Source of the DNA: Sanguibacter antarcticus
GTDB taxonomy: Bacteria; Actinomycetota; Actinomycetes; Actinomycetales; Cellulomonadaceae
Assembly: GCF_002564005.1 (NCBI RefSeq)
Contig: NZ_PDJG01000001.1
Span: forward strand, 248,001-312,000
DNA: 64,000 bases
Direction of reading: 5' to 3'
Made by a program: the position numbers and the translations under genes. The notes under the pieces were generated by a model. It searched no databases and was not told where the DNA came from. It saw nothing but the letters and a program-made list of their open reading frames with translations. Shown one piece after another: positions 15,408-25,130 of this stretch (position 1 is its first letter; each line of letters opens with the position of its first letter).

Positions 15408-16838
15408 TCACATGCGGTGCGCCATGGGCTGGAGGAACATCCACACGTTGACCGCGCCGAGCAGGATGACGATGGTTGCATAGGGCATGAGGGTCGCTCG
15501 GCGGCGGGCATCCGTGCGGTAGCGGCGGTGGGCGATGCGTCGGGCCGTGTAGAGCGAGCCCGCGACGCCGAGTGCGAGCAGCGCGAGCTGGAGCACCTGG
15601 ATGGTGCCCGTGCTCAGGAGCGCGGGGTCGACGCGGGAGGTGTTCGCTCCGAAGAGCGCAGCGACGGTGGTGTAGACGGAGCCGCCTTCGGCAAGGAGGT
15701 GGAAGAGGTTGTGTGCGAGGTGGGCTGCGACGTCGAGGGGGATGAGCGCGTACCCGAAGCGGGCGAAGTTCATCGTGGTGCTCTCGAGGTTGCCGGCGGC
15801 CGCGACGCGTGAGGCGAGGGCGAGGAGCGCGACCGGGACCGTCACGGCGACGGCGAATGCGACGGTGAAGATCAGCGGGTAGCTCGTGATCCCGGTGGCG
15901 GTCTCGATCCAGGCGAGGACGTCGGTCCAGACCTCGAGCATCGTGATGTTCTGGATGAGGACGATGCCCATGATCGCCATCGCGAGGTAGGACTGCTCGA
16001 TCTTGGGCTTGGTGATGAACCACAGCTCGCTCGTGGGTTTGCGCAGGCGTATCTGGATGGCGTCGTTGGGGCAGGCCTTGATGCAGTTGGCGCACAGGTT
16101 GCAGTTCGCGGACTCGTCCATCGTGCGCGGGAAGGTGAAGAGGGGGCAGCCGGCGACCTTGTCGTTGCCGTTGTAGCAGACGGCCTTGGCGGTGCATGTC
16201 TTGCAGATCCCGGAGTCGGCGCGTAGCTCGACCATCCCGACGCGGGCGTAGTTGCCGGACAAACCGCCGAGGAAGCACAGGTAGCGGCAGAAGGTGCGCC
16301 GCTGGAAGAAGGCACCCGAGGCGATGACGGCCGTGGTGAGCAGGAGCAGCAGGACCCCCGAGCCCCAGGGCGACTCGACGACGCCCCACACGTGGTCGGC
16401 CCACGTAATCGCGAGGAATGAGGCGTCGATGATCCAGATGCCGTAGTTCTTGAGGAACTTGGGCACCGGCCGGTTGACGCCCACCCACTTCTGCACGACG
16501 TCCGTCAGCCCCCCGAACGGGCAGACCGCGCACCAGAACCGGCCGAGCAGCACGAACACGATCGGGATGACGGGCCACCACAGCACCCACATGAGCGCGG
16601 TGCCCGCGTTCTCGTGCGCGACGTCCGGCCCGGCGAGGAGCTGGTAGGCGACGAGACCGAAGACCGCCGCGACCGGGATCTGGAAGATCTTCGGGTACCA
16701 CCGGCTGCGCAGCGACCGGGCGACCCACGGGATCGTCATGAGGTTGCGGCCCACCGGTGGTGGCGTGAGGTCTGGTCCCGGGGTCACGTCGGGATCGACG
16801 TCGTGAGCGGCGGGCGGTGTGAGCATGGGCATGGTCAT
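15408..16838 (-). CDS. Membrane polyferredoxin (NapH/NosR/YccM-like 4Fe-4S protein)
   Basis: 476 residues with about ten membrane helices. Two CxxxCP-type motifs occur near helices (FWCAVCPFGG and FCRYLCFLGG). Two cytoplasmic 4Fe-4S clusters follow: CKTCTAKAVCYNGNDKVAGC, an unusual spaced set, and the classical CNLCANCIKACPNDA. C-terminal helices hold extra His residues (HLAHNLFHLLAEGG). NapH and NosR relatives move electrons from quinol to periplasmic enzymes. No nitrate or N2O reductase gene is nearby, so the partner is unknown. The start codon overlaps the stop of the upstream Met/His-rich membrane protein gene, so they form one operon. Confidence 0.87.
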   Translation of the reverse strand: MTMPMLTPPAAHDVDPDVTPGPDLTPPPVGRNLMTIPWVARSLRSRWYPKIFQIPVAAVFGLVAYQLLAGPDVAHENAGTALMWVLWWPVIPIVFVLLGRFWCAVCPFGGLTDVVQKWVGVNRPVPKFLKNYGIWIIDASFLAITWADHVWGVVESPWGSGVLLLLLTTAVIASGAFFQRRTFCRYLCFLGGLSGNYARVGMVELRADSGICKTCTAKAVCYNGNDKVAGCPLFTFPRTMDESANCNLCANCIKACPNDAIQIRLRKPTSELWFITKPKIEQSYLAMAIMGIVLIQNITMLEVWTDVLAWIETATGITSYPLIFTVAFAVAVTVPVALLALASRVAAAGNLESTTMNFARFGYALIPLDVAAHLAHNLFHLLAEGGSVYTTVAALFGANTSRVDPALLSTGTIQVLQLALLALGVAGSLYTARRIAHRRYRTDARRRATLMPYATIVILLGAVNVWMFLQPMAHRM

Positions 16839-17302
16839 CGCGGGATCCTTCGCGGCCGGTCAGCTAGGCGGGCGGTGAGGGGCAGGTCACTGTCGCTGCG
16901 GCGCTGGGGCTCGTGGTGGCGCTTGCGCCGGCGCAGCACCGCGGCGCTGACCAGCACGACAGCGTTCAGCCCGCCGAACGCCGACAGCACCGGGACCCGG
17001 GGTCGGTCAGGTGTGGGGGCCACCTCGTCGGGGTGGTCGTCGCTGGTCCCCTCGTGCTGACCGTGCTCCTCCTCGACAGGGGTCGAGTGGTCCATTCCTT
17101 CCATATCCTCCATGTCGCCCGCGGGCGGCGTCGTGGGGTCCTCGGGCAGGGGGCCGTCGTCGGTCGCGAGGCCCGCGGGCTGGGACACGTAGTCGACCGT
17201 CACCTCCTGGTGCTCGGGCACCGCGATGGTGAGGGCGAGGTAGGCGGCCAGCGGCACCGTGAGTGCAACGACGGACGACAGCCGGACGAGAGCGACGTAC
17301 AT
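16835..17302 (-). CDS. Membrane-anchored protein with Met/His-rich extracytoplasmic loop
   Basis: 155 residues from ATG 17302 with a good AGAGGAG site; the longer frame upstream lies on the promoter. An N-terminal membrane helix (about 5-28) is followed by an exported stretch of ~85 residues rich in Met, His, Asp and Glu (GDMEDMEGMDHSTPVEEEH). A C-terminal helix (~108-125) and a basic tail end it. The composition suggests copper binding. I recognise no named family. It overlaps the polyferredoxin gene by four bases and has a response-regulator-like repeat upstream, so both probably serve metal-linked electron transfer. Confidence 0.7.
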   Translation of the reverse strand: MYVALVRLSSVVALTVPLAAYLALTIAVPEHQEVTVDYVSQPAGLATDDGPLPEDPTTPPAGDMEDMEGMDHSTPVEEEHGQHEGTSDDHPDEVAPTPDRPRVPVLSAFGGLNAVVLVSAAVLRRRKRHHEPQRRSDSDLPLTARLADRPRRIPR

Positions 17303-17383
17303 GGGAACTCCTCTGGGTCTGCAGCCAGAAGCGTCGCCGCCATCGCGGCCACTCGCGTGGGACTTGTGGGCCTCAGGGCGAAC

Positions 17384-17405
17384 CTCAATCGAACCTTCAT
17401 CAATT
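17384..17405 (+). promoter_or_regulatory. Candidate response-regulator box (11-bp direct repeat)
   Basis: CTCAATCGAAC is followed directly by CTTCATCAATT, 11 bp apart, matching the repeats at 5988, 9979 and 10565. It lies 82 bp before the start of the polyferredoxin operon. Confidence 0.42.
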
Positions 17406-17457
17406 GAGAACATCGAGTCCGTCCGATCCACAGAGGTTGACCCGGCACGATGACGGC

Positions 17458-18048: not shown

Positions 18049-18825
18049 ATCGCTGCGGTAGGGATCGGATTCGCGGCGGGCTCGTGGGCCCTGCTTGCGG
18101 CCGTCAGTGCACGATAGATCTGTCGGGCGAGGTAGCGCTTGAGGATGCGGCGGATCTCGCGCCTCGTGAGCCCTTCAGCGATTCGTCTTTCGTCTCCACA
18201 TCGTGCGTCATGCGCACGATCATGACCATGTGCAGGGCCTTGTTCAACCGACGATCGCCACCGCGATTGAGACGGTGACGCACTCTGTTGCCAGAGGACG
18301 CGGGGATCGGGCTGACGCCCACGAGCGAGGCAAACGCCGCCTCGGAGTACATGCGTCCCTCGTGTGACCATGCGGCCATTGCCACCGCCACTGTCACGGG
18401 GCCGATCCCAGGCTTGTCGAGCACGACGCACGCCGGACTCTGGTTGAGTAGTGACGTGGTTGTCTTGACGTTCTCGGCGAGCTCTTTGTCGAGGTCGAGG
18501 ACACGTTCGGCCAGCCGCACTGCCTGAGTGCGTGCGATGACCATCTCGAGTGCCACGGTGCGGGAGCGCAACTTGGAGACCTCGACGACCTGGTTGCCCG
18601 CCGTCGTGACCGCGCGCCCATTGGGCTCCGTAGGAGGCAGAGCACTCGATCACTCACAGCGCCTCGAGGTCACCGCCGGTGCGGCGCCCCGCCCGGTCGA
18701 GCGCCCGAGCAATCCCCGCGCTCGTGGTGGGGAACTCGGCGTCGTCGACGACCTCGCCGTGGGGCGTCGCGAGAACTCCCATCATCGGAAGGCATCGACG
18801 CCTACCAGGGCAACGACGCGCCGAC
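18039..18825 (-). pseudogene. IS110-family transposase, decayed
   Basis: Pieces of an IS110 transposase lie in order across several frames. N-terminal part: GVLATPHGEVVDDAEFPTTS and VIECSASYGAQWARGH. Transposase_20 block: LDKPGIGPVTVAVAMAAWSH and SSGNRVRHRLNRGGDRRLNK. Tail: RREIRRILKRYLARQIYRAL. Breaks are a stop after GGDLEAL, frame changes near 18590 and 18185, and a deletion between the RuvC-like and C-terminal parts. The active site Asp region near the start is also broken. Confidence 0.82.
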
Positions 18826-18877
18826 GCCCGCGACGAAGCAGGTAGGTCAGCGACTCATCGTCTCGCACCTCCACTAT

Positions 18878-18913
18878 TGACACTCATGTTCCGACATCGG
18901 AACATGAGTGTCA
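18878..18913. promoter_or_regulatory. 36-bp palindrome over the start of the HTH/nucleotidyltransferase operon
   Basis: TGACACTCATGTTCCGA (18878-18894) and its exact reverse complement (18897-18913) are separated by only two bases. The right arm contains the probable start codon ATG 18904. A 17-bp-arm dyad placed this way is the classic layout of an autoregulatory operator bound by the first gene's product. Confidence 0.7.
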
Positions 18914-19617
18914 TGTTAAGTGTTACAGAGGCGGCTAGACAGACGGGCCTCTCGACTCGTCGCGTGCGGGCGCTGATCGCTGGGGGAGCCCTTCGGGCAA
19001 CGAAGGTGGGCGCTGCCTACGCGATCGACGAGCGCGACCTCGACAACTTCGTGCGTCACGAGCGCCCCGCATACATCCGTGCCTTGTCCCCGCGGATCGC
19101 ATGGGCGGCTGCCGCGCTCCTGGACGGGGTGCAGCCCACGTGGCTGCGAGCGGAGGAACGCTCCCGCCTACGTTCCAGGCTTGCCTCCGCGGGAACGTCA
19201 CGTGGGACCTGGCAAGCCTGGACCGCACGCCTCGCCCAGACACGCATGACGTTCAAGGCCTCCCCAGCCCAGGTCGAAGCGGTCATGGCCGCATCGTCAA
19301 CGGTGCGATCAGGGCGCTCCGCATCCAACCTCGTCACCGACCCGCTCGTAGGAGCCGTCAGTGCCGCCGTCTGGACCCACACCCTCGACGACGTCGACCA
19401 CCTCCGGCGCACCCTAGGGCTCCTGCGGTCGAGCGCAGGGAACGTGACGATCAGCGTCCCACCCCCGTTCGGGCTCCCTGCGCTCGGGGCGGACGGGCGC
19501 AACGCCTTTCGCCTCGTCGTCGCCCACGACCTGCTGACCGAGAACGACCCCCGCACGGTCTACGCAGGCACCGCGCTGCTCGCTGCCATCACGACCACGG
19601 AAGGATTCAAGTCGTGA
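18904..19617 (+). CDS. HTH (excisionase/MerR-like) protein, putative antitoxin/repressor
   Basis: 237 residues. The N-terminal ~55 residues are an excisionase/MerR-type helix-turn-helix (LSVTEAARQTGLSTRRVRAL, wing ATKVGAAYAIDERDLDNFV). The remaining ~180 residues (HERPAYIRALSPRIAWAAAA onward) have no motif I know. Three in-frame ATGs (18886, 18904, 18913) lie in or at the palindrome; 18904 is a compromise. It overlaps the nucleotidyltransferase gene by four bases (GTGA). The arrangement (repressor first, coupled NTase second, operator over the start) is that of an AbiE-like toxin-antitoxin pair, with this gene as the antitoxin and autorepressor. Confidence 0.72.
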   Translation: MSVMLSVTEAARQTGLSTRRVRALIAGGALRATKVGAAYAIDERDLDNFVRHERPAYIRALSPRIAWAAAALLDGVQPTWLRAEERSRLRSRLASAGTSRGTWQAWTARLAQTRMTFKASPAQVEAVMAASSTVRSGRSASNLVTDPLVGAVSAAVWTHTLDDVDHLRRTLGLLRSSAGNVTISVPPPFGLPALGADGRNAFRLVVAHDLLTENDPRTVYAGTALLAAITTTEGFKS

Positions 19618-20633
19618 TCGTCCCCACCGAGGTGCTGATCGAGATCGTCACGACACTGACGACGACCGACGAGCAGACTGCGCGCGCCCACCTCGACGCC
19701 CCGGGGCCCTCAATCGAGCACCATGTCGCTCTAGAGAACCTGAACAACCTCCTGCGCCAGCTCCCAGCGCACCACGCAGATCGTCTGCGCCTGCGCGACC
19801 AGCTCTCCCCGGCAGCCCCCCAGGCCACCGCGACCTCTCTGCACGCCGCCGGCGAGCTCCTGCGCAGCGGGTCCGTACGATTTCCGCAGATGCCTGGGAC
19901 GCTCAGCCTTCCCGCCCTCGACCCTGTCCTGACCGAGACGTTCGCGGTACTCCAGGCACTCGATACATCGCCTCACCCTTGGACCGTCGTGGGAGGTCTC
20001 ATGGTGATGACGCACTGCGTCCGCCACGGTGTCCCGTTCACCCGGGCGACCGGCGATGCTGACATCGCCGTCGGCGTATTCACCCACCGCCGAGCCCTGC
20101 GAGAGCTCACCAGAGACATGGCCCAGCTCGGATTTGTCGACATCACTCCCGACTCGATGACGGGGGAGAACCTGTCATACCGGTGGTCGCGAGACCCCGT
20201 GCTGATCGACCTGCTGGTACCCGAGCGCGTCAACGACCAAAGAATCGTCCCCCACACCGCCGCCCTCCGGCCGGCAGTCGAGCTCCCCGGTGTCCAGCAG
20301 GCGCTCGCACGCACGCAACGACTCACCATCGAGCTCCACGACGGACAAACCGGACCGATCAGGGTGCCTGACCTGCTCGGAGCATTGACTATCAAGTCCA
20401 CCGCAGCGCTCAGCGACCGGCGCGACACCGACCGTCACTTCAGCGACCTCGTCATGCTGATCGATGCCCTTGCCGCATCTGGGGACGTCGTCAGGTATGC
20501 CAGTGAACTCCGGTCAGAAGACCGCACGCGCATCCAACGAGCTGCCGACCGCTTTACCGAGGCCCAACGCCGCACTTCCATGGATCCACTGGCCGCTGAG
20601 GATGTCCTAGACCTCCTCCTAGACAGGGCTTGA
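19614..20633 (+). CDS. AbiEii-like nucleotidyltransferase, putative toxin
   Basis: 339 residues from GTG 19614. The central part carries a minimal nucleotidyltransferase site: VVGGLMVMTHCVRHG (GG at ~127-128) followed by FTRATGDADIAV (metal-binding D148 and D150). A second acidic strand follows (DPVLIDLLVPERV), then PDLLGALTIKSTAALSDRRD, which fits the Lys-containing helix of AbiEii/MNT proteins. The ~115-residue N-terminal extension is helical and unassigned. AbiEii-type enzymes add nucleotides to tRNA or other targets and block growth during phage attack. Coupling to an HTH gene and the IS-rich setting support a toxin or defence role, which is inference. Confidence 0.7.
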   Translation: MIVPTEVLIEIVTTLTTTDEQTARAHLDAPGPSIEHHVALENLNNLLRQLPAHHADRLRLRDQLSPAAPQATATSLHAAGELLRSGSVRFPQMPGTLSLPALDPVLTETFAVLQALDTSPHPWTVVGGLMVMTHCVRHGVPFTRATGDADIAVGVFTHRRALRELTRDMAQLGFVDITPDSMTGENLSYRWSRDPVLIDLLVPERVNDQRIVPHTAALRPAVELPGVQQALARTQRLTIELHDGQTGPIRVPDLLGALTIKSTAALSDRRDTDRHFSDLVMLIDALAASGDVVRYASELRSEDRTRIQRAADRFTEAQRRTSMDPLAAEDVLDLLLDRA

Positions 20634-20789: not shown

Positions 20790-20879
20790 ATGAGTGTCGT
20801 GACAGCACCGAAGAAGTTCCCCGAGGACCTTCGGGAACGAGCGATCCGCATGGGGGCGATGCGCGGCATGATCCGGTGA
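20790..20879 (+). pseudogene. IS3-type OrfA fragment
   Basis: ATG 20790 begins MSVVTAPKKFPEDLRERAIR, the normal start of an IS3-family OrfA, and ends at a stop after 29 residues. The bases before it (TGATGGAGGCTCTCATTC) look like an IS3 left end. The rest of orfA and all of orfB are deleted. From here to 21058 I see no gene. Confidence 0.65.
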
Positions 20880-23442: not shown

Positions 23443-25130
23443 GCCTCGGGCTTTCATGGCGGGGTGGGTCTCAGTAGGTGTCATGACGCAAGAAAGTGCT
23501 CCTGACCTGGAAGAATACGGTTTGTTGAGGACCGATTCTGACTAGTTCGAGGAGCACCTTCAAGGTGAAGACTACCGTCGCGTATCCCCGTCTGAACATC
23601 GTCACGTCGGCGACGTCCGCGGTTGGTCAGGCTGGTGGGGTGCTGTTGACCGAGACGGTCCGGGCGACGGGTCTGGATCGGGCGTTGTCGACGGGCTTGG
23701 CGCGGTGGCGTAAGCCGACGGCGTTCCACGACCCGGGCAAGGTGATCGTGGACCTGGCGGTCGCCCTGGCGTTGGGTGGGGACGCGTTGGCGGACGTCGC
23801 GGTGCTGCGCGCCGAGCCCGGTGTCTATGGCGCGGTCGCCTCGGATCCGACGGTTTCGCGCACGATCGCGGCGTTGGCCGCTGATGCCCCGGCAGCGTTG
23901 GCGGCGATCAACACCGCCCGAGCTGCGGCCCGTTCGGCGGCCTGGCGCCTGGCTGGTGAGCGCGCCCCCGACGCGGGCGCCAGCGCGGTGGACCCTCTGG
24001 TCATCGACCTCGACGCGACGCTGGTCACGGCGCATTCGGAGAAGGAGAACGCGGCGCCGACGTTCAAGCGCGGGTTCGGGTTCCATCCCCTGTGCGCGTT
24101 CGTCGACCACGGCGGCGCCGGGACCGGGGAACCGCTGGCGATCATGCTGCGGCCGGGCAATGCCGGGTCGAACACCGCCGCCGATCACATCGCGGTTCTC
24201 CGAGATGCTCTGGCTCAGCTCCCTGGTCATGGCGGGCGGACGCGGGGCAGTAAGAAGATCCTGGTCCGCACCGACGGCGCAGGCGGAACCAAAACCCTCA
24301 TCGAATGGCTCACGACCCACCGCCTGGGCTACTCGGTCGGGTTCACGCTGCCTGGCAACACCCCCGACCTGCTGGCCCGCATCCCCGAGACCGTCTGGGC
24401 CCCGGCCCTGGACGCTCACGACGAGGTCCGTGACGGCGCCTGGATCGCTGAGCTCACCGACCTGATGGACCTGACCGCCTGGCCGGCAGGCATGCGCGTC
24501 ATCGTTCGCAAGGAACGACCCCACCCCGGGGCCCAGCTGCGCTTCGAGGACGTTGACGGGATGCGCATCACCGCGTTCGTGACGAACACGCCCGCCGGTC
24601 AGCTCGCTGACCTCGAGCTGCGCCACCGCCGCCGCGCCAGATGTGAAGACCGCATCCGCATCGCCAAGGACACCGGTCTGCGCAACCTCCCCCTCAAGGC
24701 CTTCGCCCAGAATCAGATCTGGTGCGCGATCGTCGCCCTCGCCAATGACCTCCTGGCCTGGATGGGCATGCTCGCCCTCACCGACCACCAGGCCCGCCGC
24801 TGGGAACCCAAACGCCTGCGCCTACGCCTGTTCACCATCCCCGCCGTCATCGCCCGCACCGGCCGGCGCACCTGGCTCCGCCTCTCCAACCGAGCGCCCT
24901 GGGCAGCGCTGGCCGCTCAAGCAGTCCAAGCCCTGCGAGCCCGACCCGCACCCGGCTGAGCGCCAGCACACCCTTGACTCAACGACCCCCGCGCGACCAC
25001 CCGGACCTGGAACCGGCGCCCAACCCGACGACACGGGACCATCTGTCATACCCACAAGGCAGAATCACACCCGAGCAGGCGCCCTGACGCCCAAACGACC
25101 CACCTCATGAGCCCGATGAAAGATCGAGGC
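23443..25130 (+). mobile_element. IS1380-family insertion sequence, apparently complete
   Basis: About 1.69 kb, one transposase gene. The left end is GCCTCGGGCTTTCATGGCGG; the right end, read in reverse, is GCCTCGATCTTTCATCGGGC, an imperfect terminal inverted repeat. Flanking bases (ctgtcta and taactag) do not give a clean 4-bp duplication, so the surroundings may have rearranged after insertion. It interrupts the KfrA-like gene. Confidence 0.8.
23565..24959 (+). CDS. IS1380-family transposase
   Basis: 464 residues from a GTG preceded by GGAGCACC. It is full length for the family. DDE elements can be read at VIDLDATLVTAHSEKENAAP (first Asp), ILVRTDGAGGTKTLIEWL (second Asp) and RRRARCEDRIRIAKDTGLRN (Glu). 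The C-terminal helices (NQIWCAIVALANDLLAWMGML) are typical. No stop or frameshift is visible, so this copy may still move. It is the only complete transposase in the window. Confidence 0.93.
   Translation: MKTTVAYPRLNIVTSATSAVGQAGGVLLTETVRATGLDRALSTGLARWRKPTAFHDPGKVIVDLAVALALGGDALADVAVLRAEPGVYGAVASDPTVSRTIAALAADAPAALAAINTARAAARSAAWRLAGERAPDAGASAVDPLVIDLDATLVTAHSEKENAAPTFKRGFGFHPLCAFVDHGGAGTGEPLAIMLRPGNAGSNTAADHIAVLRDALAQLPGHGGRTRGSKKILVRTDGAGGTKTLIEWLTTHRLGYSVGFTLPGNTPDLLARIPETVWAPALDAHDEVRDGAWIAELTDLMDLTAWPAGMRVIVRKERPHPGAQLRFEDVDGMRITAFVTNTPAGQLADLELRHRRRARCEDRIRIAKDTGLRNLPLKAFAQNQIWCAIVALANDLLAWMGMLALTDHQARRWEPKRLRLRLFTIPAVIARTGRRTWLRLSNRAPWAALAAQAVQALRARPAPG

Follow-up and report, generated by a model that had tools for sequence, protein, structure and literature searches.

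What is the function of a gene for a helix-turn-helix (HTH) protein and a gene for a nucleotidyltransferase (NTase) which overlap behind a long palindrome? Such a pair lies in the DNA of Sanguibacter antarcticus analyzed here, a stretch of 64,000 nucleotides which we call the window (G000:C1:248001-312000 of the 3.52-Mb genome; coordinates without this prefix are those of the window). A first-pass annotation had proposed a toxin-antitoxin or phage-defence module resembling AbiE. Three results speak for this proposal: the NTase has a MenT-like fold, homologues of the HTH protein contain an AbiEi_2 domain and the two genes are paired. Computation gave the pairing of the genes, the fold predictions, the conservation of the motifs and an operator-like site conserved among relatives. 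We consider it likely that the locus is an AbiE/MenAT-like toxin-antitoxin operon, with an NTase toxin and an HTH/AbiEi_2-like antitoxin which represses its own operon via the palindrome. The locus is composed of:

18878..18913, no strand: operator palindrome, 36 bp with 17-bp perfect arms and a 2-nt centre, from -35 to +1 with respect to the antitoxin start at ATG 18913
18913..19617, plus strand: gene of the antitoxin/autorepressor (putative roles), 234 amino acids from ATG 18913 or 237 amino acids if ATG 18904 is used
19614..20633, plus strand: gene of the putative toxin, a DUF1814/AbiEii/MenT-like NTase of 339 amino acids with a GTG start

In the following the HTH protein of the window is termed antitoxin (P0001) and the NTase toxin (P0002). 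Their relatives were aligned in A1 (toxins, 23 members) and A2 (antitoxins, 47 members). The palindrome and the four-base overlap of the genes had both been noted in the first-pass annotation and both are confirmed. The arms of the palindrome (18878-18894 and 18897-18913; 17 nt each, 100% complementary) are longer than those found by chance, as this length was reached in 0 of 100 dinucleotide-preserving shuffles of the region. With up to three mismatches allowed the arm matches only the palindrome's own two arms in the window, and a degenerate form of the site is found at a single place in the genome. The genes overlap at 19614-19617 with the sequence GTGA, both frames being open. ATG 18913 is the likelier start of the antitoxin because 11 of the 17 homologues shown (P0025-P0030, P0032-P0036) begin at the same residue.

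The two genes are also paired across other genomes. Without the window and duplicate loci (L001, L003, L015, L018, L058) there are 57 toxin loci, of which 54 have an antitoxin relative on the same strand; this count starts from the toxins. The three loci without a partner are L010, which is at a contig end, L049 and L017, a weak toxin match (E = 6.5e-4) coinciding with a canonical AbiEii match. The exact overlap of 4 nt was scored in 28 of the 54 pairs, a number biased by choosing the start codon nearest to the antitoxin stop, which favours short distances. Cleaner evidence comes from annotated plasmid records with overlaps of 4 nt (two of four) and 14 nt (two of four). The regulator is the first gene in the window and in all four inspected plasmid records, and the two genes are presumably co-transcribed. 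In total 34 plasmid records match the toxin; among the 20 listed, most proteins are annotated merely as hypothetical. The gene directly upstream of the toxin in the four inspected plasmids is annotated once as HTH, once as DNA-binding and twice as hypothetical. When three plasmid antitoxins were scanned for HTH_17, one passed, one stayed below the cut-off and one gave no match, its annotated start being probably late. In L094 (Tsukamurella plasmid pTpau01, 2342) the annotated start of the DNA-binding protein seems late; the HTH continues in the upstream frame.

The named loci of a set of 45 are mostly from Actinomycetota, with two titled Chloroflexi and one "uncultured bacterium". Of the 99 genomes searched, 11 have a match, as do two of six genomes of the genus (own genome included in both counts). 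At least six loci (L032, L053, L057, L059, L060, L062) have a toxin open reading frame (ORF) which is short or split. The genome carries a second HTH and NTase pair of the same family (G000:C1:2612705-2616328; L002, L015) with a shorter toxin and a weak dyad (P = 0.035), and a canonical AbiEii-family match (G000:C1:2791289-2791939; L075). Thus three NTase toxin-like genes coexist. From the AbiEii reference set L067, L078, L081 and L082 remained unused.

Which kind of enzyme is the putative toxin? Structure prediction, which the first-pass annotation had proposed as a check, gives an NTase domain with the DUF1814/AbiEii/MenT fold. The top structural matches are MenT1 and MenT3, with at most about 21% identity in the structural alignments. 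The toxin is divided as follows:

19614..19910, plus strand: N-terminal extension, residues 1-99, five helices in the structure model
19992..19997, plus strand: motif I, G127-G128 (G127 in 66 of 66, G128 in 62 of 65 sequences with a residue at the column)
20043..20063, plus strand: motif II, R144-x-T146-x-D148-x-D150 (R144 in 62 of 65, D148 and D150 each in 64 of 64)
20394..20396, plus strand: motif III lysine K261 (lysine in 65 of 67, counted likewise)
20433..20447, plus strand: motif IV-like R274-H275-x-x-D278 (H275 and D278 each in 67 of 69)

The first-pass statement that the NTase keeps only the GG...DxD core does not hold, as K261 and the motif IV-like residues are near-invariant too. The published motif IV consensus of DUF1814/AbiEii toxins, however, is +DxxD (PMC3985639), and R-H-x-x-D of the toxin family departs from it. 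GG and DxD are separated by 19 residues in 42 of 48 measured loci; for AbiEii this spacing is reported as x15 (PMC3985639). Of 54 locus toxins 46 show the strict pattern R/K-x-[ST]-x-D-x-D, and column 146 is threonine or serine in all 64 sequences with a residue there. MenT1 and MenT3 are treated as AbiEii homologues, with T39 and S78, respectively, as proposed phosphoacceptor positions (PMC11375011). We propose by analogy that T146 could be their counterpart. The AbiEii model (PF08843) does not match P0002. At E <= 0.1 it is found in one of 23 A1 members (P0017, 20.2 bits, below the cut-off of 22.5), and one of six scanned family toxins passes (L094, 22.7 bits).

The N-terminal extension is present in 15 of the 23 A1 members and absent from eight. 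T16, L46, R48, Q49, R57, L60, R89 and P91 are identical in all 15 extended sequences. Mean pairwise identity is 0.38 in the extension versus 0.64 in residues 100-235, by which measure the extension evolves faster than the catalytic part. The high predicted template modelling score (pTM) suggests that the extension is firmly placed on the NTase domain. With the extension alone as query, four close relatives were recovered while ten further known carriers escaped; the search is therefore hardly informative on relatives elsewhere.

The presumed antitoxin has three parts:

18913..19056, plus strand: Xis/BldC/MerR-type HTH (HTH_17), residues 4-51 of the 237-amino-acid form
19075..19182, plus strand: family signature segment, residues ~58-93; each of the five columns invariant among the aligned antitoxins lies here (R59, W67, R88, L89, R90)
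19246..19614, plus strand: AbiEi_2-like C-terminal domain (predicted antitoxin domain), residues ~115-237, assigned via relatives

The HTH is of the HTH_17/excisionase type (TIGR01764) and the closest solved folds are BldC and Xis. The segment of residues 58-93, between the HTH and the AbiEi_2 part and outside both recognized domains, is the most conserved of the antitoxin; it has no Pfam match above the cut-off in P0001. The first-pass annotation had described the C-terminal domain as being without a known motif. This is correct for P0001 alone: its own Pfam scan gave no known domain in this part and AbiEi_2 (PF09952) was also undetected across its own genome. Relatives, however, match AbiEi_2 there. 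Residues 121-230 of the homologue P0066 align with positions 41-142 of the profile (26.7 bits; cut-off 21), and the partner gene of the near-orthologue L005 (genome G018) reaches 22 bits against the same cut-off of 21. At E <= 0.1 nine of 47 A2 members match AbiEi_2 and two of 47 AbiEi_4, the one inspected of the latter (P0068) being below the AbiEi_4 cut-off. AbiEi_2 matches neither P0001 nor three scanned plasmid antitoxins, and in one scan it was found in none of four family antitoxins. A profile-profile comparison with AbiEi_2 proteins of related genomes gave E = 3.6e-4 at a probability of 37%, versus E = 0.054-0.85 for seven control pairs. Thus the statement that neither protein is a standard AbiEi or AbiEii applies to the two sequences, neither of which passes an AbiE model of Pfam, and is too strong for the family.

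The alignment with the antitoxin family is limited to profile positions ~41-142, and the early ~40 positions of AbiEi_2 remain unaligned. In canonical members this early part is probably the DNA-binding part. The DNA-binding domain may therefore have been exchanged.

How might the operon be controlled? Two promoter-like elements coincide with the palindrome:

18877..18882, plus strand: TTGACA, putative -35 element, within the left arm except for its first base, which is outside the arm
18900..18905, plus strand: GAACAT, putative -10-like hexamer, separated from TTGACA by 17 nt and from the ATG by 7 nt

With this spacing the mRNA would be leaderless. A generic sigma-70 scan gave no promoter at the window site. 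Among 59 upstream regions 30 have TTGACA, one mismatch being tolerated, with its first base at -37 to -33, 27 have TGT(n) immediately 5' of the start codon and 24 have both; in 200 shuffles the means were 1.57, 2.75 and 0.035 and the maxima 7, 7 and 2. Hexamers of the form GA[ACT][ACT]AT are most frequent at -13 (10) and -12 (5). The row of L094 is probably off the promoter in these counts, as its annotated antitoxin start looks late. The imperfect-palindrome score is above shuffles at P <= 0.01 in 20 of 55 upstream regions and at P <= 0.05 in 24, and not above them (P <= 0.05) in 31. As the loci are related, these tests lack independence. Nineteen of the 20 dyads at P <= 0.01 are located within -51 to +5, the exception being L040 (-80 to -46). 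The position of the dyad is exactly -35 to +1 in L001, L004, L005 and L019, the four nearest orthologues. The dyads differ by paired substitutions across the two arms (L004, L005, L019), as would be expected for a protein-bound site; the core is mismatched in L004 and L019. Dyads and promoter-like elements are conserved across relatives, and autorepression of the AbiE type may operate here. Two loci have additional long perfect palindromes upstream of the operator dyad, L057 (Kocuria sp.; -114 to -49, arms of 29 bp) and L046 (-88 to -56, arms of 15 bp).

We suggest that the operon works in the following steps, in which toxicity, the tRNA target, DNA binding and the leaderless start are inferred. 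The antitoxin, with its Xis/BldC-type HTH followed by an AbiEi_2-like domain which would neutralize the toxin, probably binds the 36-bp palindrome as two 17-bp half-sites. Within the half-sites would lie the -35 element, the -10-like element and the start-codon edge of the leaderless mRNA, and the operon would be self-repressed. The GTGA overlap could couple translation of the toxin to that of the antitoxin. When the antitoxin drops, through plasmid loss or phage takeover, transcription would resume and free toxin would halt growth. By analogy with MenT1 and MenT3 the toxin probably extends the 3' ends of tRNA by nucleotides and in this way blocks translation. The most speculative step is that phosphorylation at T146 neutralizes the toxin, in line with the proposal for MenT1 T39 and MenT3 S78.

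With AbiE, a type IV toxin-antitoxin and abortive infection system, the locus shares the presumed two-gene operon with the regulator first and a pol-beta NTase as putative toxin second, a predicted antitoxin with an N-terminal DNA-binding and a probable C-terminal antitoxin domain, and inverted repeats over -35/-10/+1, which are putative elements here (AbiE features from PMC3985639). It differs by the Xis/BldC-type HTH, by the motif IV R-H-x-x-D, the N-terminal extension and the missing PF08843 match of the toxin P0002, and by a single palindrome of 36 bp where AbiE has two inverted repeats of 23 bp (PMC3985639). AbiEi and Rv2827c both act on inverted repeats over the promoter and start (PMC3985639; PMC7319586). 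The operator would therefore follow a control logic already known, whereas the single palindrome ending on the initiation codon appears as a different geometry. MenAT (MenT1, MenT3), with its type VII-like control by toxin phosphorylation, provides the best structural match of the toxin and shares threonine or serine at the proposed phosphoacceptor column of motif II. In contrast, the identity is about 21% at most and the antitoxin is neither like MenA1 with its 68 amino acids (PMC10435456) nor of the COG5340 type like MenA3 and MenA4 (PMC7319586).

If AbiEi_2 corresponds to COG4861, the COG4861-DUF1814 pairs (e.g. MenAT2, Rv0837c-Rv0836c) are probably the nearest antitoxin class, from which the family differs by the unaligned first ~40 AbiEi_2 positions. 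A literature search on AbiEii combined with HTH_17, excisionase, MerR/Actinobacteria, leaderless start or Cellulomonas, made within one library, gave no listed paper on this combination. Is the family then a branch of its own? We tentatively put forward, as a possible but doubtful reading, a separate NTase toxin-antitoxin branch widespread in Actinomycetota. In this branch an Xis/BldC-type HTH would replace the AbiEi DNA-binding domain, the leaderless promoter would be placed under one palindrome ending on the initiation codon, and antitoxin specificity and half-sites would change together between species. The Sanguibacter/Cellulomonas toxin would further have gained a docked helical domain of ~99 residues, with invariant polar positions (R48, Q49, R57, R89), as built-in regulator, substrate selector or trigger sensor.

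The strongest alternative to our interpretation, which we regard as improbable, is ordinary AbiE: a divergent, functionally standard COG4861-type AbiEi and AbiEii, mechanistically nothing new. Some family members do match the AbiEi_2 and AbiEii models of Pfam, and the literature already lists COG4861-DUF1814 pairs, Rv0837c-Rv0836c among them, as predicted systems (PMC3968373; PMC7319586). The structure model of P0001 further has a wing-like strand pair in the HTH (strands 33-35 and 38-42); this antitoxin and AbiEi may thus differ in degree only, and an exchange of the DNA-binding domain becomes less certain. A separate branch is somewhat less probable as the HTH is itself of the winged type. 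Ordinary AbiE is nevertheless disfavoured by the nearness of the HTH to BldC and Xis, by the partial alignment with AbiEi_2, by the different motif IV and by the extra N-terminal domain of the toxin.

Could the NTase modify a substrate, for example adenylylate an antibiotic or a small molecule under the control of its own repressor, and be no toxin at all? This is very improbable, as MenT1 and MenT3 score higher in the structure comparison, the relatives of the partner have an AbiEi_2 domain and motifs II and III are of the DUF1814 type. Still less credible is a fused HEPN-MNT system with the helical extension as HEPN RNase-like toxin and the NTase as antitoxin. A five-helix domain does sit on the NTase, R48 is invariant and R-Q-x(3-5)-H, which we take to be the HEPN motif, occurs in 11 of 15 extended sequences. 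The histidine, however, is absent from the other four, eight A1 members do without the extension, the query matched before residue 51 in only two of 45 loci and a separate AbiEi-like antitoxin exists.

Mobile elements are found near the toxin-antitoxin operon. The first-pass annotation had seen insertion sequence (IS) remnants on both sides and one of them is borne out, a truncated IS110-type transposase (18104-18571, minus strand; Transposase_20, E = 1.2e-17). The putative IS3 remnant, an ORF of 26 residues at 20801-20878, has no Pfam match at E = 0.01. A DDE_Tnp_1_4 transposase (464-codon ORF, 23565-24959) follows 2.9 kb downstream of the module. The IS110 fragment ends 307 bp upstream of the palindrome and the HTH is of the excisionase type (TIGR01764), yet that the palindrome is an IS end or recombination site and the HTH protein an excisionase-like accessory of IS110 is just as hard to credit as HEPN-MNT, given one site in the genome, dyads at equal distance from the antitoxin ATG in other genomes and the partner at nearly all toxin loci.

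Is the operon then a mobile defence cargo? Its neighbours were sampled as 100 of 206 ORFs from those 26 of the 45 loci which had at least 12 kb of sequence (L058 dropped as a duplicate). For the controls, 20 stretches were picked arbitrarily in related genomes and 100 of their 188 ORFs were sampled; ORFs above 900 amino acids were excluded from both sets before sampling. At E <= 1e-10 the neighbours match 40 PADLOC families and the controls three (mad3, mad8, AriA), although one island may count several times and the matches may cluster in few loci. Among the 25 neighbour families listed are Wadjet JetA, JetB and JetD, AbiLi, AbiLii, HEC-05, HEC-01A and PDC-M14A. Generic defence models, however, are no commoner near toxin loci (mad3 in four neighbours versus seven controls, AriA in one versus two), and Pfam assigns the 100 neighbour ORFs chiefly to ordinary transport and metabolism families (among the 25 of 71 families listed). 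The neighbourhood is suggestive and would fit a defence or stabilization role, without proving it. A mobile defence cargo is supported in part only, by the presence in some of the genomes searched, by the plasmid relatives and by some defence models which the control stretches lack. Further upstream in the window (15408-17431) a gene for a 4Fe-4S (Fer4_5) protein lies beside an ORF without Pfam match. This region is present in two of six genomes of the genus (own included), in the other genome as two separate pieces.

In summary, the family allows the DNA-binding domain of the antitoxin, the operator sequence and the operator position to be compared over many species, and the extended NTase toxin is a natural case for what accessory domains add. 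As the putative counterpart of the MenT phosphoacceptor threonine/serine stands here alongside a different kind of antitoxin, the proposed generality of toxin auto-phosphorylation becomes testable outside M. tuberculosis.
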